Origin: Gemmatimonas sp.
GTDB taxonomy: Bacteria > Gemmatimonadota > Gemmatimonadetes > Gemmatimonadales > Gemmatimonadaceae
DNA length: 64,000 nt
Reading direction: 5' to 3'
NCBI GenBank assembly: GCA_025361705.1
Contig: JANYJW010000010.1
Span: 1 to 64,000 of the forward strand
Positions within the stretch are counted from its first letter, which is position 1. Every line of letters starts with the position of its first letter. The position numbers and the translations under genes were made by a program. Of the stretch, positions 12,194-33,439 are shown piece by piece. A model generated the notes under the pieces. That model saw only the letters and a program-made list of their open reading frames with translations. It was not told the origin of the DNA and ran no database searches.

Positions 12194-13162
12194 ATGGAGA
12201 CCATGAACTACGCCGCGATCCCGACCCCCCGCGGCCCCGAGGAAAAGGGGGATCTCGGCTTCGGCGCCGTCGTCTCGACCGCCAGCCGCAAGCGGTTGCT
12301 CAACCCCGACGGTTCGTTCAACGTGCGGCGCGTGGGACTGCCGTGGGCCGAGGCGGTGAGCCTGTACCACAGCGCGCTCACGCTCAGCTGGCCGCAGTTC
12401 TTCGGCTGGGTGGTGCTCATCTACCTGGGCATCAACATCCTGTTCGGCGCCCTCTTTCTCCTCTGCGGGCCCGGCGCGCTCGTCGGTTCGGGGGCCGCGT
12501 CGATGGGCGGCGCGTTTGCACGGGCGTTCTTTTTCTCGGTCGAGACGTTCGCCACCATCGGCTACGGCAACATCAGCCCTGCCGGCGCGATGCCGCACTT
12601 CATCATGACCTTCGAAGCGCTGGTGGGCGTGCTCGCGCAGGCGCTCATCACCGGCCTGTTCTTCGCGCGGTTCGCCCGCCCCACCGCGGCCATCACGTTC
12701 AGCAGCCGCGCGGTCATTGCGCCGTTCAAGGACGGCAAGGCCCTGATGATCCGCATGGCCAACCGCCGCAAGAACGAGCTCATCGAGCTCAAGGCATCGC
12801 TGTCGTTCTCGTACGTGAATGACGAGAACGGCGTGTCGATGCGCCGCTATCGGGCGCTCACGCTCGACCGCGCCGAGGTGACGTTCTTCCCGCTCGCGTG
12901 GACCATCGTCCATCCCATCACGCCCGCCAGTCCGCTCTGGGCGCTCGACCACGACGCGCTCATGGCCAAGGACGCGGAGATCCTGCTGCTGCTCAGCGGC
13001 ATCGACGACACGTTTGCCACGACGGTGCATGCGCGCACGTCGTACAAGCCCGACCAGCTCGACTGGGACACCAGGTTCACCAACATCTTCAACCAGCCCG
13101 ACGCCGACGGGCTGATGTCGCTCGACATCAGCCGGCTGGACGAGACGCACCCGGTGGTGTGA
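12194..13162 (+). CDS. KirBac-type inward-rectifier potassium channel
   Basis: The protein has 322 residues. A slide-helix region (about 47-66) precedes TM1 (about 68-92), then the pore helix and the selectivity filter TIGYGN (121-126), then TM2 (about 134-158). The C-terminal half is the immunoglobulin-like cytoplasmic IRK domain; FSSRAVIAPFKDGKALMIRMANRR is close to the KirBac consensus and ends in TFATTVHARTSY. It is a K+-selective homotetramer in the inner membrane. The ATG at 12194 was preferred; a second ATG at 12203 is possible. TAACTT at 12180-12185 lies 8 nt before the start, so the mRNA may have little or no leader. The gene is divergent from the DUF5916 gene. Confidence 0.93.
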   Translation: METMNYAAIPTPRGPEEKGDLGFGAVVSTASRKRLLNPDGSFNVRRVGLPWAEAVSLYHSALTLSWPQFFGWVVLIYLGINILFGALFLLCGPGALVGSGAASMGGAFARAFFFSVETFATIGYGNISPAGAMPHFIMTFEALVGVLAQALITGLFFARFARPTAAITFSSRAVIAPFKDGKALMIRMANRRKNELIELKASLSFSYVNDENGVSMRRYRALTLDRAEVTFFPLAWTIVHPITPASPLWALDHDALMAKDAEILLLLSGIDDTFATTVHARTSYKPDQLDWDTRFTNIFNQPDADGLMSLDISRLDETHPVV

Positions 13163-13170
13163 GGCGCGCC

Positions 13171-13190
13171 GGACGCCGCATCAGGCGTCC
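13171..13190 (+). terminator. Possible short terminator hairpin after the K+ channel gene
   Basis: GGACGCC (13171-13177) pairs with GGCGTCC (13184-13190) around a 6-nt loop, followed by TTGATCTTGT. It overlaps the last codons of the convergent SET gene. The stem is short and the T-run is broken. Confidence 0.4.
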
Positions 13191-13708
13191 TTGATCTTGT
13201 CGGTGTGCCGCGCCGCCGCATGGTGGGGCTTGCGCCGCGCCGGCTTGGTGGGCGCGAGGATCGTGCCGCGGCACCGCTTGGCCCCGCAGCGGCACGCGTA
13301 GCGTGCCACGTCCTCGGCCGTCTCGGTGCCGTCGCGCTCGTAGCCGTAGTCGTACGCCAGTTCCTGGCCCGCGGCGATGGGCGTGCGCGCGTAGATGAAG
13401 ACGCGGCTGCGCTCGATGACCGCCTCGCAGTTGGGGTCACACGAGTGGTTGATGAATCGCGCGTCGTTGCCGCCCACCGACGCGTCGATCACCGTCTGCC
13501 GCGAGACGGAGAACAGGAACGTGTGGTGCGACCGCATCGACTCGTCGTGGTACTTGGCGTCGGCCACGGCGTGCGTAATGCGCTGGCCCACGTACTCGAT
13601 GAGCCGTTCGCCCTTGCGGATGTCGCGCGTGGCAAACGCCCCCCGGCCGGCGATGACGGAACGGCGAACCTTGAACGCAGGCGTGGCGGACGGTGGGCGC
13701 GGGGGCAT
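13181..13708 (-). CDS. SET-domain protein lysine methyltransferase
   Basis: The protein has 175 residues, nearly all of it a SET domain. It shows GRGAFATRDIRKGERLIEYVG (SAM-binding start), FINHSCDPNC (85-94, the knot motif), YDYGYE (119-124), and a post-SET cysteine set CxCxxxxC (139, 141, 146) for zinc. In eukaryotes these methylate histones. In bacteria the substrate is usually unknown and may be a nucleoid or ribosomal protein; the short Lys/Arg/His-rich tail here is unassigned. The ATG at 13708 was chosen because the domain begins about 12 residues later and there is no better start upstream. It is convergent with the K+ channel gene and divergent from the aldehyde dehydrogenase. Confidence 0.87.
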   Translation of the reverse strand: MPPRPPSATPAFKVRRSVIAGRGAFATRDIRKGERLIEYVGQRITHAVADAKYHDESMRSHHTFLFSVSRQTVIDASVGGNDARFINHSCDPNCEAVIERSRVFIYARTPIAAGQELAYDYGYERDGTETAEDVARYACRCGAKRCRGTILAPTKPARRKPHHAAARHTDKIKDA

Positions 13709-13794: not shown

Positions 13795-15180
13795 ATGCAT
13801 CGTGCGGCCATGCCACAGTCCAGCGTGAATCCCGCCACGGGCCAAGTGCTCGCCGCCATCGCCGACCATTCAGATGCGGAGGTTGAGCGTCGTGTTGCGC
13901 AGGCCGCCGCCGCCGCGGTGACATGGCGCGCCGTACCAGTCGCCGAGCGCACGGCGATGCTGCGCCGCATGGCCGATCGCCTCGACGCCGACCGCGTGAC
14001 GCTTGCCCACCTCGCGGCGCAAGAGATGGGCAAGACCGCACGCGCCGCCGCGGACGAAGTGGCCAAGTGCGCACTCGCCTGCCGCTACTACGCCGACGAA
14101 GCGCCTGCCCTGCTCGCACCGGAACGCGTGATGCGCGACGGCCGCGAGGACGGCGCCGTGCACTTCCAGCCCCTTGGTGTGCTGCTGGCCATCATGCCGT
14201 GGAACTTCCCGTACTGGCAGGCCATCCGCGCCGCCGCGCCGGCGCTCGCCGCGGGCAACGTGGTGCTGCTCAAGCACGCCTCCAACGTCCCGCAGTGCGC
14301 GCTGGCCATCGAACGGCTCTTTGACGAGGCAGGGGCGACACCCGGCGTCTTCACCACGCTGCTGGTGGGCGCGGCGCGCGTGGGTGCCCTTATCGACGAC
14401 CCGCGCGTCGCCGCGGTGACCCTCACCGGCTCCGAGGCGGCCGGACGCGACGTCGGCGCGCGCGCCGGGCGCGCGGTAAAGCCGTGCGTGCTCGAACTGG
14501 GCGGCAGCGACCCCTTTGTCGTGCTCCCCAGCGCCGACCTCGACGCGGCGGCGGCCACCGCGGCCCGCGCCCGTTGCATAAACAACGGGCAGTCGTGCAT
14601 TGCCGCCAAACGGTTCATCGTGCACACCGACGTGTATGACGCGTTCGCCGAGCGCTTCACCGCCGCCATGGGCGCGCTGACCGTCGGGGACCCGCTCGAC
14701 GACGCCACCGACGTCGGGCCCCTCGCCACCGCGGACATCCTGCGCGAAGTGGACGATCAGGTGCGACGCACGGTGGCGGCCGGCGGGCGCGTGCTCGCGG
14801 GCGGCGCCGCGCCACGCGGCGCCGGGAATTTCTATCCGCCTACCGTGCTCGGCGACGTGCCACATGACGCAGCGGCAGCGCGCGAAGAGGTATTTGGGCC
14901 CGTCGCTCCACTCTTCCGCGTGCCGTCCGCCGACGCGGCCCTCGCGCTCGCCAACGACACGCCGTTCGGGCTCGGCGCGTCGGTGTGGACGCGTGACGCC
15001 GATGAGGCGCGGCGCTTTGCCATGGGCATCGACGCCGGATCGGTGTTCATCAACGCGATGATGGCCAGTGATCCGCGGTTCCCGTTCGGCGGCATCAAGG
15101 CCAGCGGCGTCGGGCGCGAACTGGCGCGCGAGGGCCTGCGGTCGTTCGTGAACGTCAAGACGGTGCGCGGCGCGCCATAG
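13795..15180 (+). CDS. NAD(P)-dependent aldehyde dehydrogenase, succinate-semialdehyde dehydrogenase-like
   Basis: The protein is 461 residues from this ATG, or 456 from the ATG at 13810 (MPQSSVNPATG), which gives the more usual family start. It has the complete ALDH fold: PWNFPYWQ in the cofactor region, LELGGSDPF with the general-base Glu, and NNGQSCIAAKRF with the catalytic Cys (about residue 268 from 13795). The C-terminal PFGGIKASGVGRELA is typical. Overall it most resembles the compact (about 455-residue) SSADH/GabD-like branch, which oxidises small aldehydes such as succinate semialdehyde. The substrate is inferred only. No operon partner is adjacent. Confidence 0.85.
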   Translation: MHRAAMPQSSVNPATGQVLAAIADHSDAEVERRVAQAAAAAVTWRAVPVAERTAMLRRMADRLDADRVTLAHLAAQEMGKTARAAADEVAKCALACRYYADEAPALLAPERVMRDGREDGAVHFQPLGVLLAIMPWNFPYWQAIRAAAPALAAGNVVLLKHASNVPQCALAIERLFDEAGATPGVFTTLLVGAARVGALIDDPRVAAVTLTGSEAAGRDVGARAGRAVKPCVLELGGSDPFVVLPSADLDAAAATAARARCINNGQSCIAAKRFIVHTDVYDAFAERFTAAMGALTVGDPLDDATDVGPLATADILREVDDQVRRTVAAGGRVLAGGAAPRGAGNFYPPTVLGDVPHDAAAAREEVFGPVAPLFRVPSADAALALANDTPFGLGASVWTRDADEARRFAMGIDAGSVFINAMMASDPRFPFGGIKASGVGRELAREGLRSFVNVKTVRGAP

Positions 15181-15207: not shown

Positions 15208-16968
15208 CTATCGGGGCTTGGTGAAGAAACGCTTGACCGCCCGCAGCCAGCGCGCGCGGCGCGTGGCGCGGCGCTGCTGACGCGCGAGTTCGCGCGTGAC
15301 GGCGCGCCACTCGCGCTGCATCGACGAGGCGTCGCGAAAGCGCTTGTCCGGGTCCGGCTGCAGCGCGCGCCGCAGCCACGCGGCGAGTTCCTCGGGGAAC
15401 GGTGAGAGGTCCGCGCGCGCGGCGAGCTGCTGCGCCAGGATGGTGCGCGCGTCCCCGGTGCCAAAGGGGAGCTGCCCCGTGAGCGCGAAGATCACGATGC
15501 CCGCCACGGCAAAGAGGTCGCAGGCCACGCCCTGCGCTTCACCCAGCAACTGTTCCGGCGCGGCAAAGGCCGGCGTGCCTGATGCGCCGGTCTTGTCGTC
15601 GCCGAGCGCGTTGGCAATGCCGAAGTCCGACAGCCGCCACTGCCGGTAGCGGTCAATGAGAATATTGGCCGGCTTGATGTCGCGGTGGATGATGCCGTTG
15701 GCGTGCGCCAGTCCCAGCCCATCGAGCACCGCCTCAACCTGCGGGGCGATCTCGGCCACCGTGCGCGCGCCCTGTCGCGCCACGAGGTCGGCCACGGAAC
15801 CCTCTTCCTGCAGCTCCATGATGAACCACGACACGTCGCCCTTGGAATCCCACGAGTAGATGGGGACGATGGCCGGATGCTTGAGCTGCGCCGCCATGCG
15901 CGCCTCGCGCCGGAACCGCGCCACCGCGTCCTCGTTCCGCGCGATGTTGGGGTGGAGCATCTTGAGCGCCACCTCGCGTTCGAGCGACAAGTCGCGCACG
16001 CGCCACACCGAGCCGAACTGCCCCGCGCCAAGGGCGGCGAGCACTTCGTAGTCATCGCCGGTCGCCCACCGCAGGCGGTCTTCCTCGGAGACGGCGCGAT
16101 ACTCACCGGACGTCTGGTCGACGCCCAGCACGAGCGGCGTGCCGGTCCCCGAGATGCGCTCGATGTGTCGCAGCATCGACGACAGGTTGGGAAACCGGTC
16201 GCCCGGATTTGCGGCGAGCGTGCGATCGATCAACTCGGCCACGCTCGCCGGGCAGTCGGGACGCACCCAGCGCACCGGCGGCACGCCCGTGCGCGGCGGC
16301 AATTCTCCAGTGAGGATCGCAAAGCAGACGGCACCCAACTGCCACTGGTCGCTGGCCGGCGTCGGCCGCCAGACGCCGCTCGACAGCTCGAGGGGCGTGG
16401 GCACCCACGACGGGTCGGGGCGCAGGCCGGCGGGCACGTCCTGGTATGGGACGGCCCACTGCCATCCCAGCAGGTACAGGCGGCCGGTGGGCGTCGAGTA
16501 GATGGTGTCGGGCGACACCGCACCGTGCTCCGTGCCGGCGTCGTGCAGGAACGCCAGCGCCGACCCGGTAGCCCGCAGGACGCGCAGCATGTACGGCACC
16601 GTCTCGGTGCCGATGCGACGCAGGCGCGCGCCCACCGTTTCGCCCGCCACCCACCGCCGCAGGTAGCCCGGACCACGCCGGCTGTCCCGGTAGGGTCGCC
16701 AGTAGTGGTACGTGGTGGGGATGCTGGGATGGTTGCGGTGCGCGAGCTGCCGAGCCTCGGAGAAGAGCCACGCCTCGTGCGCCGGATCGGGCGCGGTCAC
16801 CAGCGCCAGTGAACGCCCGAATGCATCGATGACCTCCATCGAGTGGCGGTACGGCGTAAAGACGCCGTCGGTGCCCCAGCTCCACCCGGGAGGCAGCTCC
16901 CATCGATCCAGATGCGGCGGGATCCCGGTGGAGTGCTTTTGCGGCGGAGAGGTTGATAGCGCGTTCAT
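15208..16968 (-). CDS. Serine/threonine protein kinase fused to an N-terminal pseudokinase-like domain
   Basis: The protein has 586 residues. The C-terminal domain (about 300-560) is a complete Hanks-type kinase: GAGQFGSVW glycine loop (about 311), VALKML lysine (about 332), HRDIKPAN (about 425), DFG (about 447) and an APEQ motif. The N-terminal domain (about 20-285) also reads like a kinase (YRHSMEVIDAFGRSLALVTA, LHDAGTEHGAVSPDTI, SDQWQLGAVCFAILTGELPP), but HGAVSPDT replaces HRDLKPEN and LLGWQWAV replaces the DFG region, so it is probably inactive. No transmembrane segment is visible; the last 30 residues are strongly basic. The ATG at 16968 lies 14 bp after the stop of the NtrY-like kinase, so the two are probably co-transcribed and may share a signalling pathway. 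Confidence 0.88.
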   Translation of the reverse strand: MNALSTSPPQKHSTGIPPHLDRWELPPGWSWGTDGVFTPYRHSMEVIDAFGRSLALVTAPDPAHEAWLFSEARQLAHRNHPSIPTTYHYWRPYRDSRRGPGYLRRWVAGETVGARLRRIGTETVPYMLRVLRATGSALAFLHDAGTEHGAVSPDTIYSTPTGRLYLLGWQWAVPYQDVPAGLRPDPSWVPTPLELSSGVWRPTPASDQWQLGAVCFAILTGELPPRTGVPPVRWVRPDCPASVAELIDRTLAANPGDRFPNLSSMLRHIERISGTGTPLVLGVDQTSGEYRAVSEEDRLRWATGDDYEVLAALGAGQFGSVWRVRDLSLEREVALKMLHPNIARNEDAVARFRREARMAAQLKHPAIVPIYSWDSKGDVSWFIMELQEEGSVADLVARQGARTVAEIAPQVEAVLDGLGLAHANGIIHRDIKPANILIDRYRQWRLSDFGIANALGDDKTGASGTPAFAAPEQLLGEAQGVACDLFAVAGIVIFALTGQLPFGTGDARTILAQQLAARADLSPFPEELAAWLRRALQPDPDKRFRDASSMQREWRAVTRELARQQRRATRRARWLRAVKRFFTKPR

Positions 16969-16982
16969 TGCGTCCAAATGTG

Positions 16983-19900
16983 TCAGGATTGCGCGGCAGG
17001 GACTAGCCGCACCGTCACCGCCGTGCCTGCACCGACGGTGCTTGCAACTTCCACCCCGCCTCCCCAGCCCTCGATGAGCCGCCGACAGATGGCCAATCCC
17101 AGGCCGCTCCCGCTGGTTCGCGTGGAGAAGTGCGGCTCGAAGATGCGCGGCAGCACATCGGCCGGAATGCCGTGGCCATCGTCGCGCACCACAATGCGCA
17201 CCGCACCGCCGCCCTTGGCAATTGCCACCCGCACGTGTCGGCTGCCAGCAAGGCGCGCGTTCTCGAGCACGTTCAGCAGCACCTCGCGCAGCTCGGTCTC
17301 GCGCGCCATCGCCACCACGGGCGCTCCGGTGCCATCGGCAGACCACGCCACATCGCCCGCGCCGAGCTGCTCCAGCCGCACCACGTCCTCGACGATGGCG
17401 GCGACGTCCACTGCGGCGGCGGGTGCCTGCTCTTCGGGCACCATGCCGTAGCGGCTGAAGGCGCGCGCGATCTCGTCGAGCCGGTCGATTTCGGCGAGCA
17501 TGCGGTCGACGTTCTGCTCCAGCACCTGGTCGAAGTCCACGCGCGCGTCGCCGCGCGCCCGGCGCAAGTGCTGCATCCCCAGTCGCATGGGCGTCAACGG
17601 ATTCTTGATCTCGTGCGCCACCTGCCGCGCCATCTCGCCCCAGGCGAGCACGCGCTGAGCGCGCGCCAGCTCGCTCAGGTCGTCGAGCGTGATCACCGCA
17701 CCGCGCGCACCGCGCAGCAGGCGCGTGAGCCGGGCATGCAACTGCACGCCGCCCGGCCGCTCGATGTCGAATTCCTCCTGCTCCGCCGCGCCCGCCAGGA
17801 AGCGCCGCAGCCGCTCGGCGAGCGACGCGTCCAGCACACCATCAGCCATCGCACCCGGCATCGCGCCCGGCGGCAGCAGCGCCACCGCGCGCGGATTGAC
17901 CAGCGCAATGCGGCCGTCGGCATCCACGGCCACGACACCGCTCGCCACATCGCGCAGCACGGCCGCCAGGCGCCGCTCGGCCGCCTCGAGCGCGTCGCGG
18001 CTCGCGCCCAGCTCCGATGCCATGCGACGGAACGCCTGAAAGACCGGCTCGAATTCCACGGGGGGCCGCGCGTCGGGAAGCGGTTCACGCACTCCGCTTG
18101 CCACGGCCAGCGCGCCAAGGCGCAGCGTGTCGATGGGGCGAGCGAACGTTTGCGCCGCGAGACCGCTGAGCCAGAACGCGGCCAGCGCACCCAGCGCGGT
18201 GACGACGAGCACCAGCACCGCCACATCGCGCCGGCGGCGATCGAGCGCCAATTCGTCGCTGCGCGCCGGCGCCGACAGCACCAGCCGCACGCCACTGGGG
18301 TCCACCGCCGCGCGATAGCCAAAGCGCACCGTGTTGCCGCCCACGTCCTCATCCATGCCCGCCAGCAGGTCGTCGTTGGAGCCGAAGGCACTCACCACCG
18401 CAGGCGGCAGCAACCGCCCAACCGGCGCCAGCGCCTCAAACAACGGATCGCTCGTCCCCACCAGCATGCCGTCGGCGTAGAGCAGCAACGGCGTCTCAAA
18501 CCGCGTGGCCGCGTCGGCCAGTTGCACGCTGTCCGACGACGCGGCCACGCCGCGCAGTGTCTCGCGCACCAACAGGTCGCGGCTCTGGCGGTCGTCCGCC
18601 TGCAGGCGGCGGTATGTCCACGCCGCAAAGCCGCCCGCCGGCAAGACGAAGAACGCAAAGAGCGCCAACGACAGCCGCAGCCGGTAGCTGCGCGGCCATC
18701 CCCGCACGCGCGCCCGCACCCAGCGCTGCGCCGTGCCCTCGGCGGCGAACAGCAGCCCCCAGATGAGCGCAACACCCAGCAGGTCCAGCATCACCAGCAG
18801 GGCCCCGCGTGGCGCGAGCACGCCGAGCCCTCGCAGATCCACGCGTGCGTGCACGCGCGCCGTTCCAGCATCGCCGGCCGGCACCACGAAGTCGCCGTGC
18901 AGTTCGTCCACGCGTCGCACCCATTGTTCGCCGTCCACGCCAGCCTCGCGCACATCGCTCATCTGCAGCGTGTACGGCGGCTCGCTGCTGGGTGCCTGGC
19001 CCAAGCCGATGAGCGCAATGAACGGGTCGGCCGGCACCAGCTTGGTGCGCGGCGAAATGACGACCGTGGTCACGGCGCCGCCGACATGCGGCACCGCCAG
19101 CACCAGCTGTGACACGGGGGCCGCCGCCGTCTGACGCAGCACGGGCTGCCGCAACCGCCGAGCCTCGGCGGCAAAGGCATCGAGCCCCAGCGTGGACCCC
19201 CCTGCCATCGCCACGCGCAGGTCGGCGACGACGCGCCCGGCAGAATCCCACGATGTCAGTTCGGCCGGGAATTCCGCTGCGCCGAGATCGCTCTCGGCGT
19301 AGCGCGCCAGCAGACCCACGCGACTTGGCGCCGGCGCCTCCCGCTCCAGCTCGGCGGCGAGGCGCTGCAGCAGCGAGTTGGCGTAGGGATCGGGAACGCC
19401 CAGGCCGGCCACATCGCGCTCCGCCAACTGCACACGTTGCCGCACCGAGGCCGACCAGACCAGCGTCACGGCGCCGCACGCCGCCACGAATGCCGTGCGC
19501 AGAAACGCGCGACGCGCACGCCGTGCGAGCGCCAGTGCCCCGATGGCGGCAATCCACAGCACGGGATACCACCCCGGCAGGCGCCCGGGCGCCTCGAGCA
19601 GCACGGGCGCCAGCAGCGCCGACAGGCCGGCGATGGACGGCGCCACCCAGCCCGGCACGCCGCGCCGTCCGCCCAGTCCTGCCTGCCCCGCCGTGATGCC
19701 CAGCAGCAGGAGCGCAAATGCCGCAAGAAAGAGTGGCGTCTCCCACGCCATCCAGAGCGCCGTCGTCACGCCCTCGCTGGGCACGCGGATGCCCCGCGCG
19801 AGGTCGCGCATGAGAAATGGCCCCACGGCGGCAACCGCCACCAGCACGCCCACCCAGGGCCAGCGGGTGCGCACGGCGGGCGCGTGGCGCAGCACGGCAA

Positions 19901-21035
19901 AGAGCGCCGTCAGTGCCAGCGCGCTCACCACCACCAGCGCGGCGACGTTGGCCGTCAGCGGCCCGAGGGTAGGCGCAAAGTACAGGCCCGCATCGAACCA
20001 GGGCGAGAAGTTGGAGTACGCGCCGAGCGGCAGCACCGCCACCGCCGCGACGACCGTCGCCAGCGCTGCCAGTCGCGTGCCCAGCCCGCGCTCGCGGCGC
20101 CACGCGGTCGCAATGAAGAGCAGGGCCAGCAGCGCCAACATGGCGCCGCTGCGCAGCCGGTCACGTTCCATCGCCTCCAGCGCCACGACCTCCGGCGGCG
20201 CGACGACGGCGCGCACGGCCAGCACGGCATCGCCTTCCACGACGACGCGGCGCATCCCGTTGCCCTCCACGGTGGCCGGGGCGAAGGCGTAGCCCGCGAT
20301 GCCCATCGGCCGCGACGCTTCGCGATCGAGCGGCGTCGTGAGGTGATCCGCCGGTCGCTCGGCGTGCAGCAGCGCGGTGGCGATGACGGCGATGTCGCCG
20401 CGCCGTTCGGCGACGTACAGCGCCAAGTAGAACGGCGTGATCATCACGCCATGCGTGGCCGGGAGCGAATCAACAGGGAGGTTCAGCCGCCCGGCCCACG
20501 CCTCGGGATGCCCCGCGCGCGCCCGAAGGATGGCACGTTCCGGATGGCCGCGCACCAGCTGAGCCATGGCCTGCCAACGCACGCCGCCGCTGTCCGCGCC
20601 GCCGCCCTGTGACGCCGTGCGCGCCGCCGCCCGCAGCTCCACTGCCGTCGATTCGATGCGGCGGGCAAAGTCCTCGGTGGACCGCGCGGCCGCCGCGCGG
20701 CTCCACGCGTCCGGGTCGGCCTCGCGCCGCACGCGTTCGAACCGCGCCCGGGTTCCCTCACCCACAAAGAGCACCGCCAGCGCCAGGAACAGCACCTCGC
20801 GGGCACGCCGCGGCGCGCGCCCAAGTACCGGCATGGCCAAAAGCACCGCAACGGCGCAACTCCAGAGCCAGACCGGCTGGGCCGTGCGAATCCACGCCGC
20901 GGCGGTCAGGATGACCAGCGCAGCAGACCCCGACCACGCCCAGCGCGTGAAGGCGCGGGCGGCGGTCAGAGGCGCCGAGCGGGCCGAGTGGGCCGTGGGC
21001 ACCGCGCTGCGGGAGGTCGGATCGGTGGAGGTCAC
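16983..21035 (-). CDS. NtrY-like multi-pass membrane sensor histidine kinase
   Basis: The protein is about 1350 residues from the GTG at 21035. The N-terminal 600 residues contain many hydrophobic spans (for example ALVILTAAAWI, LWSCAVAVLLAMPVL, AMLALLALLFIATAW, LFLAAFALLLLGI). A second extracytoplasmic region and further spans (LVMLDLLGVALIWGLLF, FVLPAGGFAAWTYRR, VLVLVVTALGALAAFWLSG) lead to HAMP-like and PAS-like segments. The kinase core has ARQVAHEIKNPLTPM (phospho-acceptor His about 1140), DDGHGIP and GSGLGLAICR. This is NtrY-type architecture with an enlarged sensor. No response regulator is adjacent. The start is uncertain: a TTG at 21116 extends the frame, but TATTAT at 21045-21050 would put transcription start 2-3 nt before the GTG. 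Confidence 0.85.
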   Translation of the reverse strand: MTSTDPTSRSAVPTAHSARSAPLTAARAFTRWAWSGSAALVILTAAAWIRTAQPVWLWSCAVAVLLAMPVLGRAPRRAREVLFLALAVLFVGEGTRARFERVRREADPDAWSRAAAARSTEDFARRIESTAVELRAAARTASQGGGADSGGVRWQAMAQLVRGHPERAILRARAGHPEAWAGRLNLPVDSLPATHGVMITPFYLALYVAERRGDIAVIATALLHAERPADHLTTPLDREASRPMGIAGYAFAPATVEGNGMRRVVVEGDAVLAVRAVVAPPEVVALEAMERDRLRSGAMLALLALLFIATAWRRERGLGTRLAALATVVAAVAVLPLGAYSNFSPWFDAGLYFAPTLGPLTANVAALVVVSALALTALFAVLRHAPAVRTRWPWVGVLVAVAAVGPFLMRDLARGIRVPSEGVTTALWMAWETPLFLAAFALLLLGITAGQAGLGGRRGVPGWVAPSIAGLSALLAPVLLEAPGRLPGWYPVLWIAAIGALALARRARRAFLRTAFVAACGAVTLVWSASVRQRVQLAERDVAGLGVPDPYANSLLQRLAAELEREAPAPSRVGLLARYAESDLGAAEFPAELTSWDSAGRVVADLRVAMAGGSTLGLDAFAAEARRLRQPVLRQTAAAPVSQLVLAVPHVGGAVTTVVISPRTKLVPADPFIALIGLGQAPSSEPPYTLQMSDVREAGVDGEQWVRRVDELHGDFVVPAGDAGTARVHARVDLRGLGVLAPRGALLVMLDLLGVALIWGLLFAAEGTAQRWVRARVRGWPRSYRLRLSLALFAFFVLPAGGFAAWTYRRLQADDRQSRDLLVRETLRGVAASSDSVQLADAATRFETPLLLYADGMLVGTSDPLFEALAPVGRLLPPAVVSAFGSNDDLLAGMDEDVGGNTVRFGYRAAVDPSGVRLVLSAPARSDELALDRRRRDVAVLVLVVTALGALAAFWLSGLAAQTFARPIDTLRLGALAVASGVREPLPDARPPVEFEPVFQAFRRMASELGASRDALEAAERRLAAVLRDVASGVVAVDADGRIALVNPRAVALLPPGAMPGAMADGVLDASLAERLRRFLAGAAEQEEFDIERPGGVQLHARLTRLLRGARGAVITLDDLSELARAQRVLAWGEMARQVAHEIKNPLTPMRLGMQHLRRARGDARVDFDQVLEQNVDRMLAEIDRLDEIARAFSRYGMVPEEQAPAAAVDVAAIVEDVVRLEQLGAGDVAWSADGTGAPVVAMARETELREVLLNVLENARLAGSRHVRVAIAKGGGAVRIVVRDDGHGIPADVLPRIFEPHFSTRTSGSGLGLAICRRLIEGWGGGVEVASTVGAGTAVTVRLVPAAQS

Positions 21036-21139: not shown

Positions 21140-21835
21140 ATGAAACGACTTTTTTTCAGCCTCCTCGCCATCGCCCTGACCGCGCATTCCGCCGCCGGCC
21201 AAACGACGGTCGTCGACGATGGCAGCTTCACGGTCAGCCGCGCCGGTGATCGCATCGGGCGCGAGGACTTCTCCATTCGCCACGTGCCGACCACGGCAGG
21301 GGCCTTCGAAACGCTCACGCGGGGCGTCATCGTGAGTGGTGGTCGACGGATGACGGTGGACCTTGGCGCAGACTCGACCGGGCTCCCCTCCCTGTATCAG
21401 GCCAAGTCGTCTGAGGAAGACCATCCGGGCGACACGTACCGTGCCGAGGTCAGCGGACACCGGTACAGCGCTCGCGCCACGCGCGGCGCGGGCGAGTCGG
21501 CGCGGGAACTGATGCTCCCCGCCGGGACGTTGGTCGTCGAAGACGGTGTGTTGCACCTGTTGCCGTTTGTCGTCGCGCGCGGTCCGGGAAAGGTCTCGGC
21601 CGTGGTTCCCTCGCGGGGCGTGGTCATCACACTCACCGTCGAAGCCGCCGGGAGCGACCATGTCTCCATTGCCCTCCAGTCGCTCGAGGCGCGCAAGTTC
21701 CTCGTGCGCGAGGGCACGACGGGGCCGGTCCGCGAGGTCTGGGTGGACGCCGCCGGGCGGCTGCTCAAGGTCGCCGTGGCTTCGGAGCGCCTGATGGCGA
21801 TTCGGGATGATGCCCCTCGGTCCCCGGCGCGGTAG
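21140..21835 (+). CDS. Secreted protein of unknown function
   Basis: The protein has 231 residues with a clear Sec signal (MKRLFFSLLAIALTAHSAAGQ). The mature part is beta-rich and begins DDGSFTVSRAGDRIGREDF, then has alternating strands to the end. It has the feel of the DUF3108/DUF6134-type periplasmic proteins (intracellular-facing REDF...RAGDRIG start, VWVDAAGRLLKV near the end), but no family is assigned with certainty. It has no cysteines after the signal and no membrane span. It lies 126 bp upstream of the TolC gene and could belong to the export locus, although the TolC gene may have its own promoter. Confidence 0.7.
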   Translation: MKRLFFSLLAIALTAHSAAGQTTVVDDGSFTVSRAGDRIGREDFSIRHVPTTAGAFETLTRGVIVSGGRRMTVDLGADSTGLPSLYQAKSSEEDHPGDTYRAEVSGHRYSARATRGAGESARELMLPAGTLVVEDGVLHLLPFVVARGPGKVSAVVPSRGVVITLTVEAAGSDHVSIALQSLEARKFLVREGTTGPVREVWVDAAGRLLKVAVASERLMAIRDDAPRSPAR

Positions 21836-21961
21836 CACGCGTACACTCGGCGGCGCCCGCGTGCGGCCGAGGGCCGGGGCGCCGGGTTGCCGCGGTGAAT
21901 TGAAACTCCGTACGGATCGGCCCCGTACTTCCCTCGGACTCAACGATTGGATGCCTCGGAC

Positions 21962-23431
21962 ATGCGCCAGCTACTGACCGCCCTTCTCGTCTCCGGAATC
22001 GCCCTGACCGCCACCGCGCAGTCGGCGACGCCGAGCACGCTGACTCTCGACGATGCCCTCGGCATTGCGAAGAAGAACAACCCCGTGTACCAGCAGCAGC
22101 TGACCGGCAAGACGCGCGCCGCGTTGGCATTGCGCTCGGCGTACGGGGCCTTCCTCCCGTCGGCCGACGCCTCGTTCGGCTCTGGCTATCGCCAGGGCAA
22201 GCCTGAGGTGTTCGGCGGCGTCGCCTTCGGCGCCACGTCAGACATCTTGTCGAGCAGCTGGGGGCTGAACTTCAGCGCCCGACTGTCGGCGTCGACGATG
22301 ACCGAGCTGCGCCGCGCGCGGGCCAACTTCGACGCAGCCGAGGCGGACATCACGGCGGCCGACGTGGGACTGCGCGGCCTGGTCGTCAACCAGTTTCTTG
22401 CGGCGCTGCAGAGCACGGCAAGCGCCGCGTTGCAGGACTCCCTGTACAAGAAGGTTCAGCTCGACCTCGATCTCGCCAAGGCGCGGGTCGACGTCGGCTC
22501 CGGCACGTCGCTCGACGTGAAGCGCGCGGAAGTGGCGGTGGGTCAGCAGCAGGTGGCCGCGTTGCGCGCGCACAACACCGCGGAAATCGACCAGGTGAAG
22601 CTGTTCCAGCAGCTCGGCGTCGCTCGGCCCGGCCCGGTCGCGCTGGTGCCGCTGACCAGCGCCACCGCACCGACATTCGAGATCGGCCAGCTGATGGACA
22701 TCGCGCGCAAGAGCAACCCGACGTTGCAAGGCTATCAGTCGCGCCAGACGGCGGCGGCGGAAGGCGTGCGGTCGGCCAAGGGGGCGTACACCCCCACGCT
22801 GTCGTTCGGCGCCCAGTTGGGCGGCTACACCACGCAGTACAAGAACGCCGACGTGCTGGTCGCGTCGGCGCAGGGCAGCGTCCTGTCGAGCCAGGCGAGC
22901 TGTTACACCACCGATTCACTGCGTCGCGGCGCCGGCATGGCTGGGATTACCGCCAAGTGCGGCGCGATGCAGTTCACCACCGCGCAGGCGCAGGCCATTC
23001 GCGACGGCAACAAGACGTTCCCGTTCGACTTCACCTCCAGCCCGTACAACCTGTCGCTCACCCTGTCGCTGCCGCTCTTCGACAAGTTCGGCCGCGAGCA
23101 GCGCGTGCAGGAAGCACAGATTGCCCGCGACAACGCGCGGTACGACGTGCGCAAGCAGGAACTGCAGCTCGCGGCCGACGTGACGTCGGCTTGGACCTCG
23201 CTGCAGGCGGCGTACCGGACCGTGGGGCTGCAGGAGCAGAACGCGGCCGCCGCGCAGGAAGCGCTGACGCTGGCGCAGGCGCGCTATCGCGTGGGTGCGA
23301 GCACCTTCGTCGAACTGGTGCAGTCGCGCAACGACTACGAGCGGGCCTCCACTGACCGGATCAGCGCCATCTATGATTACCACCGTGCCTGGGCTGCGCT
23401 CGAGAACGCCGTCGGCCGCCCCCTCCGCTAA
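21962..23431 (+). CDS. TolC-family outer-membrane efflux protein
   Basis: The protein has 489 residues. It has a signal peptide (MRQLLTALLVSGIALTATAQ) and two OEP repeats, each with long alanine-rich helices: LDDALGIAKKNNP at the start and RYRVGASTFVELVQSRNDYERA near the end, the latter typical of TolC proteins. It would form the trimeric outer-membrane and periplasmic channel for the adaptor, ATPase and permeases that follow. The ATG at 21962 begins the signal peptide; a TTG five codons upstream was not used. A TTGAAA (21900-21905) is the best -35-like element upstream, without a convincing -10. The adaptor gene starts 12 bp after the stop. Confidence 0.92.
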   Translation: MRQLLTALLVSGIALTATAQSATPSTLTLDDALGIAKKNNPVYQQQLTGKTRAALALRSAYGAFLPSADASFGSGYRQGKPEVFGGVAFGATSDILSSSWGLNFSARLSASTMTELRRARANFDAAEADITAADVGLRGLVVNQFLAALQSTASAALQDSLYKKVQLDLDLAKARVDVGSGTSLDVKRAEVAVGQQQVAALRAHNTAEIDQVKLFQQLGVARPGPVALVPLTSATAPTFEIGQLMDIARKSNPTLQGYQSRQTAAAEGVRSAKGAYTPTLSFGAQLGGYTTQYKNADVLVASAQGSVLSSQASCYTTDSLRRGAGMAGITAKCGAMQFTTAQAQAIRDGNKTFPFDFTSSPYNLSLTLSLPLFDKFGREQRVQEAQIARDNARYDVRKQELQLAADVTSAWTSLQAAYRTVGLQEQNAAAAQEALTLAQARYRVGASTFVELVQSRNDYERASTDRISAIYDYHRAWAALENAVGRPLR

Positions 23432-23443
23432 CAGAGACTGACC

Positions 23444-24717
23444 ATGACCAAGCGTACCAAGTGGATTCTTGCCGGCGTTGTCCTGGCGGCCGTTGCCGGT
23501 GCCGGCTACCTGCAGGTGCAGAAGGCCAAGACGAAGGGCACCGAAGTGCGCATCGAGGCCGTGCAGAAGCGCGACCTCGTGGCGTCCGTGACCGCCAGCG
23601 GACAGGTGACGCCGCGCACCAAGGTCGACCTCTCCGCCGACATCACCGGCAAGATCGTGAGCCTGAATGTGAAGATGGGCGACATGGTCACCAAGGGGCA
23701 GCTGGTGCTGCAGATCGACCCGCAGCAGTTCGAAAGCCAGGTGCAGCGCGCCGAAGCCGCGCTCGCCAACGCCCGCGCCGGCCTGGCGCAGGCCAAGGCC
23801 AGCCTCGGCCAGTCCACCAAGAACTTCGAGCGGTCGGCCGAGATCAAGAAAGGCAACGCGACGCTCATCAGCGATGAGCAGATTGAACAGCTCAAGACGA
23901 CGATGGAAGTCAGCCAAGCCATGTTCGAAGCGGCGCAGCAGTCGGTGAAGCAGGGCGAAGCCACGCTGAAGGACGCGCGCTGGCAGCTCTCGCGCACCAA
24001 CATCTACGCCCCGATGTCCGGACGGGTGACACGCCTCAGCGTGGAAAATGGCGAAACGGCCGTGCAGGGCACGTTCAACAAGGACGCCGCCACGCTGATG
24101 ACGATCGCCGACATGAGTGTGCTCGAGACCAAGGTGAAGGTGGACGAGACCGACGTCTCGCGCATCGCGCTGGGCGACTCGGCCATCATCCAGATCGATG
24201 CCTTCCCCGACACGACGTTCATCGGCAAGGTGGTGGAGATCTCGCAGAGCTCGGTGAAGGGCGCGTCGACGAGCGCCGGCGACCAGGCCATTGACTATGA
24301 AGTCAAGATCCGCCTGCTCAATCCGCCCACCGACACGCGGCAGGACTTCTCGGCCACCGCCAAGGTGATCACCGACTCGCGCACCAAGGTGCTGGCGATC
24401 CCGATCATCGCGCTGACCGTGCGCGAGAACGAGGCGCTGGCGAACAAGGACTCGGTGCCCGCCAACAGCAAGGCCCCGGCCAAGCAGGTGGGCAAGAAGG
24501 ACGTCGAAGGGGTCTTCGTGGTGGACGCGACCAACAAAGTGACGTTCCGGCCCGTAAAGGTAGGGATCGCAGGAGAGAAGTACTTCGAGGTGCTGTCCGG
24601 CCTCAAGGAGAACGACAAGATCGTGGGCGGCACGTATCAGGCCATCCGCGAGCTGAAGGACGGCGCCATCGTGAAGGAAGCCAAGCAGCCGGAGCAGAAG
24701 CCCGGGGAGAAGAAGTC

Positions 24718-24721
<4 letters not shown>
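23444..24721 (+). CDS. HlyD/MacA-family periplasmic adaptor
   Basis: The protein has 425 residues. An N-terminal membrane anchor ([19 protein letters not shown], about 7-25) is followed by the lipoyl-like half-motif ([21 protein letters not shown]), a long coiled-coil hairpin (about 100-180, [22 protein letters not shown]) and the second lipoyl half ([12 protein letters not shown]). Beta-barrel and membrane-proximal domains complete the MacA-type plan. It would bridge the inner-membrane permeases and TolC. The stop overlaps the GTG of the ATPase gene by 4 bp (GTGA), showing translational coupling. Confidence 0.93.
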
Positions 24722-25545
<824 letters not shown>

Positions 25546-25601
25546 GCCACGTGCTTGGCGGCAGGTGATGGCAGATGGCAGACGTCAGATGGCAGGCCCT
25601 G

Positions 25602-25635
25602 AAGGGCGGCTCCCGACTTGGGAAGGCCGCCCTTT
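25602..25635 (+). terminator. Terminator-like hairpin between the ATPase and first permease
   Basis: AAGGGCGGC (25602-25610) pairs with GCCGCCCTT (25626-25634), with an inner TCCC/GGGA stem around gactt, and TTTCTGG follows. If active it would reduce read-through from tolC-hlyD-macB into the permeases. It is enclosed by 7-mer motifs in inverted orientation (25567-25597 and 25667-25764), as at 8528. Confidence 0.65.
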
Positions 25636-25666
25636 CTGGTTTCGCCCGTGAGGCCGACGGTTCGCA

Positions 25667-25764
25667 CTGCCATCTGCCATCTGCCATCTGCCATCTGCCA
25701 TCTGCCATCTGCCATCTGCCATCTGCCATCTGCCATCTGCCATCTGCCATCTGCCATCTGCCAT
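25667..25764 (+). repeat. 14 exact tandem copies of CTGCCAT
   Basis: Fourteen identical 7-bp units (98 bp) lie in the 258-bp gap between the ATPase and permease 1. Opposite-orientation units (gatggcagatggcag) lie at 25567-25597. The array is open in all frames in both directions and produces false MADGRWQ-type translations. Confidence 0.97.
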
Positions 25765-25803
25765 CCCTCGAAACACTGCACCGAACCCCGCCGTACATAG
25801 CCC

Positions 25804-27051
25804 ATGCTCTTCTTCGAAGCGGTCCGCCTTGCGCTGTCCACCATCCGCGCGCAGAAGCTGAAGAGCTTCTTCACCCTGCTCGGCGTCTGCATCGGCGTGA
25901 TGTTTCTCATCGCCGTCGTCTCGATCGTCGAGGGGATGGGGCGCTACATGGAACAGGACCTCATCGGCAAGCTGATCGGGGTCAACTCCTTTGAGCTGCG
26001 CAATCGCCCCAACATCCAGATGGGCGACATGGACCCGGCCGTGTGGGAAGAGATGCGGCGGCGCCCGCGCCTGTATCACGACGACATCGCGCCGGTGGTG
26101 GAAGCGCTCACGCCTGGCACGCGCTGGGCGGTGGTGAGCGACAACAACCTGATGATCTCGTCGCGCTACTCGGGCGGGCCGCGCAGCGCCCAGATCAGTG
26201 CCGTGGAGGGGGACTACTTCGCCATCAAGAAGTTCGTCATCGTCGACGGTCGCGAGTTCACGGCGCAGGAACTGTCCATGGGCACGCCCGTGGTGATCAT
26301 CGGGCAGGACGTGGTGAAGCGCCTCTTCGCGGGCCTCAACCCCATTGGGCGCGAGCTCCGCATGGGCGGGCTTCCCTACACCGTCATCGGCGTGTTGGAG
26401 TCGCAGGGCAGCGCCATCGGCATCTCGTTCGACAACCAGGTGTTCGCGCCCTGGCAGGCGCCGGTGCACCGCCTGCTGAATCGCGTGCCGCAGATCATCG
26501 ACGCCATCATCATCCAGGTGCCCAGTGCTGCGCAGATGGGTGAAGCGCAGGAGCGCGTGCGCCAGGTGATGCGCGCGCGGCACAAGCTGCGCCCGGCGCA
26601 ACCGGACAACTTCTCGGTGCAGACGGCGGAGAGCGCGCTGGCGTTCTGGAACAAGATCAAGCGCTACCTCGTGCTGGCCGGCGTGGCGCTCCCGGCCATC
26701 GGCCTCGTGGTCGGCGCCATCGTGATCATGAACATCATGCTCGTGGCCGTCGCCGAACGCACGCGCGAGATCGGCATCCGCAAGGCGCTTGGCGCGCGAC
26801 GCCGCGACATCCTCACTCAATTCCTCATCGAGGCGGCCACCCTGAGCACGGTGGGCGCGGCCCTCGGCATCGCCCTTGGCATCGGCCTCGCCAAGCTCAT
26901 CTCGGCCGTCAGTCCGCTGCCGGCCACCGTGGCGCCGTGGTCCATCGCGGTGGGTGTCGCGCTCGGCGCAGGGGTGGGAATCATCAGTGGCGTCTATCCG
27001 GCGAGTCGCGCCTCGATGCTCGATCCCATCGCCGCTCTGCGCCAGGAGTAG
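25804..27051 (+). CDS. MacB/FtsX-family ABC transporter permease 1 (type A)
   Basis: The protein has 415 residues. One N-terminal membrane span follows [17 protein letters not shown]-like sequence (about 16-45); a large periplasmic MacB_PCD domain covers about 50-280; three C-terminal spans cover about 290-405. The cytoplasmic coupling motif [20 protein letters not shown] lies after the first of these, and the protein ends IAALRQE. There is no nucleotide-binding domain, so it needs a separate ATPase, probably the one at 24718. The ATG at 25804 is preceded by a conserved CTCGAAAC...CCGCCGTACA block also found before permease 3. Permease 2 starts 2 bp after its stop. Confidence 0.92.
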
Positions 27052-27053
27052 CC

Positions 27054-28310
27054 GTGACCCCGCTTGCGCAGCGCGCCTACAACATTGTCGAGGGCGTCCG
27101 CATCGCCCTCGACGCGCTCAAGGCCAACCGGGTGCGTGCCGGCCTCACCATCCTCGGCATCGCCGTCGGCGTCTTCGTGGTGGTCGTCATTTCGGCAGCC
27201 GTGCACGGCATCAACGTGAGCGTCGCCAAAGACCTCGAGTCCACCGGGCCGACGACGTTCTACGTGCAGCGCTATCCCATTACCTTCGAGGCGTGCGACG
27301 GCACGGGCGACACGTGCAAGTGGCGCTCGAACCCGCCCATCACCTTCGCCGAAATGGACGCGCTGAACCGGCTCGAGGGCGCGGGCACCGTGGGGGCCGC
27401 GATGTTCTGGGGCGGCTCGCTGAAATACCGCGACCGCCAGCTCCCGTCGGCGGCGATCGAGTCGTACACGGGCAACTGGTCGTCGCTGGGCGCGCCGGAG
27501 ATGATGGACGGACGCGCCTTTACGGAGCAGGAAGCGCGCAGCGCCGCTCGCGTCGTGGTGCTCACCACGGTCACCGCCGAGCGCCTGTTTGGCGAAGGGG
27601 ATCCCGTGGGCAAGGAGATCATGGTGAACGGCACGCCGTTCTTCGTGATCGGCGTCTATCGCGACAACGCGAGCTTCCTCTCCGGCGGCGGCGACCGCGC
27701 CAAGGTAGTGATGCCCATCCAGTCGCTGAGCCGGCACCTCAACGTGCAGATCCGCGACATGGGGCTCGCCGTGAAGCCGCGCGACGGGTATCGGCAGGAC
27801 GAGCTGATCGACGATGTGACGGCCACGCTGCGCGGCATGCGCGGCATGCGCCCGGGGCGCGAGTCGAACTTCGCAATCATCACGCAGGACAAGATCATGG
27901 ACACCTACAACAAGATCTTCGGGATGTTCTTCCTGGTGATGATCGCGTTGTCGGCGGTCGGGCTGATCGTGGGCGGCGTGGGCGTGGTGGCCATCATGAT
28001 GATCTCGGTGACTGAACGCACGCGGGAGATCGGCGTGCGGAAGGCGCTGGGCGCGACGCGGAGCACCATCCTGTGGCAGTTCCTCATCGAGGCGGTGACG
28101 CTCACCGGCATCGGCGGCGCCATCGGGCTTGCCGTGGGTTGGGGCGTGGCGCTGCTCGTGCGGCGGTACAGCCCCATTGCGGCCTCCGTGCCACCGATGG
28201 CGGTGGTCGCGGCGCTCGGCGCCAGTGCCGTCACCGGCATCCTGTTTGGCATCTTGCCGGCGGCGCGAGCGGCGCGGCTGGATCCGGTGGATGCGCTGCG
28301 GTACGAATAG
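27054..28310 (+). CDS. MacB/FtsX-family ABC transporter permease 2 (type B)
   Basis: The protein has 418 residues. It has the same plan as permease 1 (1 TM, periplasmic MacB_PCD domain, 3 TM with ERTREIGVRKALGATRSTIL) but belongs to the B subtype: the start reads ALDALKANRVRAGLTILGI and it ends VDALRYE. In the periplasmic domain a cysteine pair (EACDGTGDTCKW, about residues 80-90) is shared with permease 4 but absent from permease 6, so a disulfide is possible. Start is the GTG at 27054, 2 bp after the permease 1 stop, so the pair is translationally coupled and could form a heterodimer; that is inference from context. Confidence 0.9.
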   Translation: MTPLAQRAYNIVEGVRIALDALKANRVRAGLTILGIAVGVFVVVVISAAVHGINVSVAKDLESTGPTTFYVQRYPITFEACDGTGDTCKWRSNPPITFAEMDALNRLEGAGTVGAAMFWGGSLKYRDRQLPSAAIESYTGNWSSLGAPEMMDGRAFTEQEARSAARVVVLTTVTAERLFGEGDPVGKEIMVNGTPFFVIGVYRDNASFLSGGGDRAKVVMPIQSLSRHLNVQIRDMGLAVKPRDGYRQDELIDDVTATLRGMRGMRPGRESNFAIITQDKIMDTYNKIFGMFFLVMIALSAVGLIVGGVGVVAIMMISVTERTREIGVRKALGATRSTILWQFLIEAVTLTGIGGAIGLAVGWGVALLVRRYSPIAASVPPMAVVAALGASAVTGILFGILPAARAARLDPVDALRYE

Positions 28311-28313
28311 GAT

Positions 28314-28362
28314 GGCGGAAGGCGGATGGCAGATGCAGCGCCTCCGCCATCCGCCTTCCGCC
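28314..28362 (+). terminator. 17-bp perfect inverted repeat built from 7-mer-like units
   Basis: GGCGGAAGGCGGATGGC (28314-28330) is exactly complementary to 28346-28362, with a 15-nt loop; TTCTGCCATCT follows. It resembles a compact version of the array plus inverted array found upstream of permease 1. No T-run follows, so function as a terminator is uncertain. Confidence 0.5.
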
Positions 28363-28411
28363 TTCTGCCATCTCCTCGAAACCCACACCGACACGCCGCC
28401 GTACAGGGGGC

Positions 28412-29650
28412 GTGCCCTTCCTCGAAGCCATCCGCCTCGCGCTGGATACCATCCGGATCCAGAAGCTGAAGAGTTTCTTCACGCTGCTGGGCGTGATGAT
28501 CGGCGTGATGTTCCTCATCGCGGTCATCTCCATTGTCGAGGGGATGAGCCAGTACGTGGAGAACGATTTCGCCGGCAAGATCATCGGCGTCAACACGTAC
28601 AACTTCCGGCGCCGCCCGGACTTCACGCCCAACGAAACGGAAGACGCGTGGCGTGAGTACATGCGTCGACCCCGCATCTATCTGGCCGAAGCGGAGCTGG
28701 TGCGCCAGACGATTCCGCCCGGATCGCGTGCCGCCATCACCAACGAGAACTTCATCTACGCCGTTGGCGGCCAGGGACGCCCGCGGCAGGTGCAAGCGGT
28801 GGCCACCGAGTCGGACTACTTCCAGATCAAGAAGTTCGGCATCACGAATGGTCGCGCGTTTACGCAGCAGGAAGTGGGGGTCGGCGCGCGCGTGCTGGTG
28901 ATCGGCGTCGAGGTGGCGGAGCACTTCTTCCCCGGGCTCGACCCCGTGGGCCGCGAGCTGCGCCTGCAGGGCACGCCGTACCAGATCATCGGCGTCATCG
29001 AGAAGCAGGGCTCGGTGTTCGGATTCTCCATGGATCGCCTCGCCATTGCCCCATGGACCACGCCGCTGCATCGCGCCCTGCGGCCGCGCGGCGACATCGA
29101 GTCGCTGCTGGTGCAGGCGCCGTCGCTGGAACTGGTGCAGGAGGGCATCGAGGCCGCCCGCGAGGTGCTGCGCGGCGCGCGCCACCTGCCCCCGGGCAAG
29201 CCCGACAACTTTGCGCTCGAGACGCAGGACTCGGCCATGGAGTTCTTCCGCGGGCTCAAGTCCAAGATGGTCGTCTTTGGCACGGCGCTCCCGGCCATCG
29301 GACTCATCGTGGGCGCGCTGGTGATCATGAATATCATGCTGGTGGCGGTCGCCGAGCGCACGCGCGAGATCGGCATCCGCAAGGCGCTCGGCGCGACGCG
29401 CCGCGACATCCTGTCGCAGTTCCTCATCGAGGCCGCGACGCTGTCGGTGATCGGCGCGGCCATCGGCATCGGGTTCGGCATTGCGCTGGCCAAGGTCGTG
29501 CAGGCCACGACGCCGCTGCCGGCCGCGGTGGCCGTCTGGTCGATCTTCGCCGCGCTGGCGCTGGGCGCCGGAGTGGGGATCGTGGCGGGCGTCTACCCGG
29601 CCAGTCGCGCCGCGCGCCTGGATCCCATTGAAGCCCTGCGGCAGGAATAG
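28412..29650 (+). CDS. MacB/FtsX-family ABC transporter permease 3 (type A)
   Basis: The protein has 412 residues, type A like permease 1: the start reads FLEAIRLALDTIRIQKLKSFF, the periplasmic domain contains AWREYMRRPRIYLAEAE, which parallels permease 1 ([11 protein letters not shown]), the coupling motif is [20 protein letters not shown] and it ends IEALRQE. The GTG at 28412 was chosen because it aligns the N-terminus with permease 1 and follows the same upstream block (CTCGAAAC...GCCGTACAG). Permeases 1-2 and 3-4 therefore look like a tandem duplication of a two-gene unit including its leader region. Permease 4 starts 2 bp after the stop. Confidence 0.9.
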   Translation: MPFLEAIRLALDTIRIQKLKSFFTLLGVMIGVMFLIAVISIVEGMSQYVENDFAGKIIGVNTYNFRRRPDFTPNETEDAWREYMRRPRIYLAEAELVRQTIPPGSRAAITNENFIYAVGGQGRPRQVQAVATESDYFQIKKFGITNGRAFTQQEVGVGARVLVIGVEVAEHFFPGLDPVGRELRLQGTPYQIIGVIEKQGSVFGFSMDRLAIAPWTTPLHRALRPRGDIESLLVQAPSLELVQEGIEAAREVLRGARHLPPGKPDNFALETQDSAMEFFRGLKSKMVVFGTALPAIGLIVGALVIMNIMLVAVAERTREIGIRKALGATRRDILSQFLIEAATLSVIGAAIGIGFGIALAKVVQATTPLPAAVAVWSIFAALALGAGVGIVAGVYPASRAARLDPIEALRQE

Positions 29651-29652
29651 CC

Positions 29653-30918: not shown

Positions 30919-30920
30919 CG

Positions 30921-30967
30921 GCGATTGAGGATCGGGACTCCGGATTCCCGATCCTCAATCGCAGTTT
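30921..30967 (+). terminator. Perfect 17-bp hairpin after permease 4
   Basis: GCGATTGAGGATCGGGA (30921-30937) pairs exactly with 30946-30962 around an 8-nt loop, followed by AGTTT. The MFS gene downstream has its own promoter-like box, which supports a transcript end here. The -35-like element of that gene overlaps the foot of the hairpin. Confidence 0.7.
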
Positions 30968-30993
30968 CCAGAGTCCTGCCATACGCCTAGCTT
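30965..30993 (+). promoter_or_regulatory. Promoter of the MFS gene, leaderless type
   Basis: TTTCCA (30965-30970, 4 of 6 matches to a -35) is separated by 17 nt from TAGCTT (30988-30993), which is 6 nt from the ATG at 31000. Transcription should begin at the start codon. Confidence 0.6.
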
Positions 30994-30999
30994 GAAGGC

Positions 31000-32190: not shown

Positions 32191-32196
32191 CGCCCC

Positions 32197-33438: not shown

Positions 33439-33439
33439 C

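Follow-up and report, generated by a model that had tools for sequence, protein, structure and literature searches.

A histidine kinase gene and a tandem kinase gene lie side by side

We analysed a 64,000-nucleotide stretch of Gemmatimonas sp. DNA (contig JANYJW010000010.1, positions 1 to 64,000; hereafter the window), in which a gene for a histidine kinase (HK) is followed on the same strand by a gene for a protein with two kinase-like domains (K). These genes and their nearest neighbours are as follows.

13795-15180, forward strand: aldehyde dehydrogenase (ALDH), convergent with K and accompanying the HK-K pair in many relatives
15208-16968, reverse strand: K, an ATG open reading frame of 586 aa (16968 down to 15208), N-terminal pseudokinase fused to a C-terminal Ser/Thr kinase
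16969-16982, reverse strand: 14-bp spacer between the HK stop and the K start
16983-21035, reverse strand: HK, a GTG open reading frame of 1350 aa (21035 down to 16983), NtrY-like multi-pass membrane histidine kinase
21140-25545, forward strand: DUF6134-like protein, TolC-type outer membrane protein, MacA/HlyD-type adaptor and MacB-type ATPase, divergent from HK

The coordinates, strands, lengths and 14-bp gap given in a preliminary description of this DNA proved exact and, as it also stated, no response regulator lies between the two genes. HK is divergent from a TolC-MacA-MacB operon in four families of the class (f1, f2, f4 and f5). In the window, a long MacB-type ABC run (24718-34702) likewise diverges from HK; it comprises one ATPase and several MacB/FtsX-like permeases, with a transporter-like protein interrupting the series. 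On the other side, genes for an inward-rectifier potassium channel (12194-13162) and a SET-domain protein (13181-13708) adjoin the ALDH gene, and the SET gene remains near in many relatives.

The gene pair is conserved in the Gemmatimonadaceae

We compared the neighbourhoods of 80 Gemmatimonadota K loci, 75 of which were informative and five of which had a contig end before the HK position. HK was present at 75 of the 75 informative loci in this gene-neighbourhood check, which the preliminary description had proposed, indicating that in these soil and freshwater bacteria the pair is conserved in relatives and that the pairing is not due to chance. HK lay directly upstream of K on the same strand at 66 of the 80 loci, and at 9 it was convergent to K and within ~2.5 kb, in most cases with the ALDH gene between them. 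Furthermore, among 54 family genomes sampled by another route, K and HK could both be located in 47, and were no more than 1.6 kb apart in 46 of these. The spacing between HK and K had a median of 14 bp, and 15 of 63 pairs overlapped, by either 4 or 14 bp, which points to translational coupling. Co-expression of the two genes, previously suggested as probable, is likely from this spacing. A sigma-70 promoter scan of the region gave no candidate, and no sigma-54 -24/-12 sites were found in the intergenic regions before HK and before TolC.

We considered whether the convergent lineages might hide a regulator between K and HK and rejected this, since the gene at that place encodes the aldehyde dehydrogenase. 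In these lineages a 103-104-aa protein (starting MFTLRIVRHDR or similar) is encoded directly upstream of K, in the place of HK, as at three loci:

L059, 8444-8758: 103-104-aa protein upstream of K
L061, 10934-11248: 103-104-aa protein upstream of K
L062, 10415-10729: 103-104-aa protein upstream of K

A record titled Candidatus Kuenenia stuttgartiensis (L182, CALQGY020000036.1) has a Gemmatimonadaceae neighbourhood, and its bin or label is probably wrong.

K fuses a predicted pseudokinase to an active-type Hanks kinase

The two domains of K and the residues that distinguish them are located at:

15295-16056, reverse strand: active-type Hanks kinase domain (residues 305-558; Pkinase 6.7e-46), containing K336, E355, HRD 428-430, N435 and DFG 448-450
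16114-16920, reverse strand: pseudokinase domain (residues 17-285), from the PknA match, AlphaFold, Foldseek and a 66-orthologue alignment
16462-16467, reverse strand: G168-W169 replacing DFG; W169 invariant (66/66)
16519-16527, reverse strand: H148-G149-A150 replacing HRD; G149 in 66/66, Asp at position 150 in just 3/66
16795-16797, reverse strand: T58, at the position of the ATP-binding beta3 Lys; Thr or Ser in 66/66

The C-terminal domain is of the active type. Pfam Pkinase matches residues 307-554 (6.7e-46, 157 bits), and the G-loop, VAIK Lys, alphaC Glu, HRD-N, DFG and APE motifs are intact in all 66 orthologues. The same model misses the N-terminal domain in the window's K, and in orthologues a Pkinase match (E up to 1) was listed for 49 of 59 N-domains, the best at 2.2e-07.

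The N-terminal domain was described earlier as kinase-like in layout, and structure prediction agrees. AlphaFold modelled residues 14-288 confidently, with a kinase-like order of strands and helices (pLDDT 87.6, pTM 0.85). Because a Foldseek search with the full model returned mainly the active domain, we modelled the N-domain alone, and this model matched PknA (2.3e-14) and, more generally, PknA/PknB (E ~1e-14, TM-scores 0.64-0.76), with TM-scores of 0.76/0.80 against PknB 1o6y. By phmmer, residues 60-260 matched PknA at 2.5e-15. The reported loss of HRD and DFG likewise stands, as HGAVSPDT and LLGWQWAV are both present and align to these motifs. None of the 66 orthologues retains the catalytic Lys or the HRD Arg in this domain, and at the HRD position the residues are HG and then Ala, Gly, Cys or (3/66) Asp. 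On the alignment and the model, we conclude that the N-terminal domain is a pseudokinase, with a kinase fold in which the beta3 Lys, the HRD aspartate and the DFG aspartate are all gone. As judged from these residues, it would be unable to catalyse ordinary phosphotransfer, and it probably does not bind ATP. Across the 66 orthologues, 54 of 269 positions are invariant in the N-domain versus 62 of 256 in the active domain, and the conserved non-catalytic stretches include PTTYHYW and RRGPGYLRRW. The domain therefore appears to be under strong selection for something besides catalysis.

In the full-length model of K the arrangement of the two domains is uncertain (pTM 0.53). We rejected a membrane-binding tail, as the charge of the C-terminal tail varies from -5 to +9 with no conserved basic anchor. 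The most hydrophobic 19-residue stretch of K, at 480, is part of the kinase domain, and the helix at the C-terminus carries charges.

HK most likely works with an NtrX-type regulator encoded elsewhere

The catalytic core of HK comprises two domains, and a candidate partner lies on another contig of the window's genome (G000):

17004-17300, reverse strand: HATPase_c domain of HK, above the Pfam cut-off
17469-17642, reverse strand: HisKA (DHp) domain of HK with H-box HEIKNPLTP, above the Pfam cut-off
G000, contig C6, 33406-34794: NtrX-type response regulator (REC, sigma-54 AAA, Fis)

Among 74 HK orthologues the H-box was found in 74, G1 in 71, G2 in 73 and the N-box, by a strict pattern, in 55. 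Matches of HK to HAMP (17.4 bits) and PAS (15-16 bits) fell below the cut-offs, and the PAS region is missing from some orthologues, such as that at L072. A Kyte-Doolittle scan gave ~11 separate, strongly hydrophobic segments. Residues 1-950 form a large multi-pass sensor part that has no Pfam match; several families within the phylum conserve it. The earlier label "NtrY-like" is supported by this layout and by the regulator, although the best matches listed included no curated model for NtrY.

A search for a distant NtrX-type regulator, as proposed in the preliminary description, led to the G000 gene. Its best NCBIfam match is NtrX, at 446 bits and thus below the equivalog cut-off of 600. Orthologues of this regulator are widespread among the genomes sampled from the phylum. 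HK and this regulator agree in 146 of 150 genomes (both in 122, neither in 24, HK only in 2, regulator only in 2; Fisher 2.6e-23, a value that overstates independence as the genomes are related), and the four discordant genomes are draft assemblies of 120 to 440 contigs. The two are jointly absent from genus g41 of f1, from G157 of f2, from genera g59 and g73 of f5, from G158 and from f7, while congeners of G157 have both, as does G156, a congener of G158. Such absences in separate groups make several independent co-losses likely. In 32 family genomes the regulator and HK share a contig, 4.7-73 kb apart, and G016 has a regulator of the sigma-54 type at a distance of 4.7 kb from HK. Part of this proximity could come from slow rearrangement across the region as a whole. 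In the regions read, we saw no histidine kinase beside the regulator. The co-occurrence, the lone regulator, the contig proximity and the NtrX best match together suggest that HK and the regulator most likely form one NtrYX-like system. By phyletic profile, the obligate partner of HK is this regulator and not K.

K and HK can be separated

Four genomes (three of genus g7, and G081) have HK but no K, and they also keep the regulator. Conversely, two g41 genomes have K without HK. These separate losses indicate that neither protein is indispensable to the pathway of the other. In g41 (G070, C4, 339064-340737; G069, C37, 102742-104415; loci L208 and L209), K remains at its old site beside TolC while HK and the NtrX-type regulator are gone, and no remnant of HK was found beside K. 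This loss is a natural experiment in which K persists without its neighbour. In G074, K and HK are on different contigs. Over the 54 family genomes, the presence of K did not significantly track that of HK (p = 0.26, from few events).

In f1 the K gene lies behind HK. Related tandem pseudokinase-kinases that are unlinked to HK are found in two sister families, f2 and f3. Their N-domains carry a different degraded signature, with Arg at the beta3 position, RRI or RRV at HRD and DLR at DFG. In an unrooted tree of single domains, N- and C-domains group by position across families, and the C-domain of f1 is sister to that of f2/f3 (support 94/83). This position-wise grouping is compatible with one tandem ancestor in the order. 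We conclude that K is a later, separable partner of HK. A second, unlinked K paralogue with 43-46% identity occurs in genus g26 (L099, 6083-7984; L213, 7238-9121), and the N-domain of the L099 copy is degraded in the same way.

Discussion

Each part of the HK-K-regulator set has a known relative. Like NtrY/NtrX, the system has a membrane histidine kinase with a HEIKNP H-box, possibly with HAMP and PAS regions (weak matches), and a regulator that has REC, sigma-54 AAA and Fis domains and finds its best NCBIfam match in NtrX. It differs in the ~11 hydrophobic segments of HK and its lack of a Pfam sensor, in the non-adjacent genes for HK and the regulator, and in scores under the curated equivalog cut-offs. 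HK is also nearly twice the usual length. In R. sphaeroides, envelope genes are under the control of NtrYX (PMC7240162), and HK here faces an efflux operon. Taken together, the TolC-MacA-MacB position and this precedent suggest envelope stress or efflux as the likeliest output.

For K, the actinobacterial Hanks kinases PknA and PknB provide the nearest solved structures for both domains, although each has a single kinase domain where K has a tandem. PknB is a membrane receptor kinase. The order of K, a pseudokinase and then an active kinase in one chain, is that of the eukaryotic JAK/TYK2 proteins, but the evident relation is limited to the kinase fold and any shared mechanism would be by analogy. 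K has no receptor-binding FERM-SH2 part. In PglW, too, an inactive kinase directly precedes an active Ser/Thr kinase (PMC12839542), and residues 203-572 of K align to PglW 406-784. However, K lacks the NERD, winged-helix and STAND parts, has no BREX genes among the neighbours tested, and stands alone as a protein of 586 aa, coupled to a histidine kinase.

A review of bacterial pseudokinases (PMC12599244) describes them as largely uncharacterised and includes families (ActPs3/MviN, GLW and CP1) that, like the N-domain of K, have lost all three catalytic motifs. VALT at beta3 of ActPs3 resembles LALVT of K, and a bulky Trp is invariant at the DFG position, as in K. GLW pseudokinases, in contrast, have GLW at HRD, whereas K has HGA at HRD and LGW at DFG. 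ActPs3 and GLW are also membrane-linked, and K shows no C-terminal transmembrane region of the GLW kind. In the parts of the review covered here, the word "tandem" is absent and no fusion of a pseudokinase to an active kinase is described.

We favour, with somewhat better than even confidence, an account in which an NtrYX-like system beside a MacAB-TolC operon is co-transcribed with a JAK/PglW-like pseudokinase-kinase. HK would be the sensor of the two-component system, with its NtrX-type sigma-54-family regulator encoded elsewhere in the genome. In the Gemmatimonadaceae ancestor, a gene for a tandem pseudokinase-kinase would have come to lie directly behind HK, and the spacing suggests that the two now share one transcript, often with translational coupling. 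By analogy with JAK or PglW, the pseudokinase most likely has a regulatory and docking role, and most simply it acts on the kinase fused to it. Made together with the sensor, K would under those same conditions most likely phosphorylate Ser/Thr residues of envelope or regulatory proteins. HK or the regulator could be among its substrates, although this is not required.

Other readings overlap with this one. K and HK may be co-inherited only, sharing a promoter and a neighbourhood while acting in separate pathways, with the pair kept by a stable family gene order. Their separability fits this, as does the retention of TolC, MacA and MacB, and often ALDH and SET, over the same genomes. However, spacings of a few bases and frequent overlaps persist at about 55-85% protein identity, and HK and K stay close even where one has flipped strand (9 loci), and we find co-inheritance alone a doubtful explanation. 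A further proposal is a direct cross-talk module, as raised in the preliminary description. Here the pseudokinase would steer K to dock on HK or the NtrX-type regulator, and K would set the gain of the two-component system by phosphorylating Ser/Thr, or else HK activity would switch K on. Hanks kinases are known to phosphorylate the histidine kinase DegS (PMC3033389), and by analogy phosphorylation of HK or the regulator by K is plausible. The adjacency and translational coupling conserved over 75 loci would fit such direct contact, as would the strong conservation of PTTYHYW and RRGPGYLRRW in the pseudokinase. Nevertheless, K or HK persists alone in 6 of 54 family genomes, and the few events available gave no significant tracking of one by the other, and we regard direct cross-talk as unlikely to be the explanation. 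Less likely still would be its most elaborate form, a JAK-like logic in bacteria where the pseudokinase acts as an adaptor, docking the Ser/Thr kinase on the HK-regulator system and thereby joining His-Asp and Ser/Thr signalling physically within a single dedicated module.

A role of K in defence, as a kinase like PglW or MAD6, is suggested by the curated models, among which the matches to these two span both kinase regions. The scores, however, are far below the cut-offs (MAD6 177.6 of 460 bits, PglW 92.6 of 990 bits), K has no NERD domain, no defence gene was found among seven neighbours checked, and K occurs in nearly all family genomes instead of in a patchy pattern. We consider this role highly improbable and have rejected it.

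In the literature, the only bacterial tandem of a pseudokinase and an active kinase that we found is that of the PglW/DndF defence proteins (PMC12839542), and a search for Ser/Thr kinases of Gemmatimonadota or for defence kinases associated with methylation gave nothing useful. New here are a bacterial pseudokinase-kinase that stands alone and occurs family-wide, the way it is coupled to a histidine kinase, and a likely regulator identified for that histidine kinase. K is a compact tandem whose degraded site is invariant, and gene order ties it to an HK whose regulator can now be named. Both the control of an attached kinase by a bacterial pseudokinase and a link from Ser/Thr to His-Asp signalling thus become testable with three proteins. 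The HK-K pairing may let two normally separate styles of bacterial signalling switch on together.
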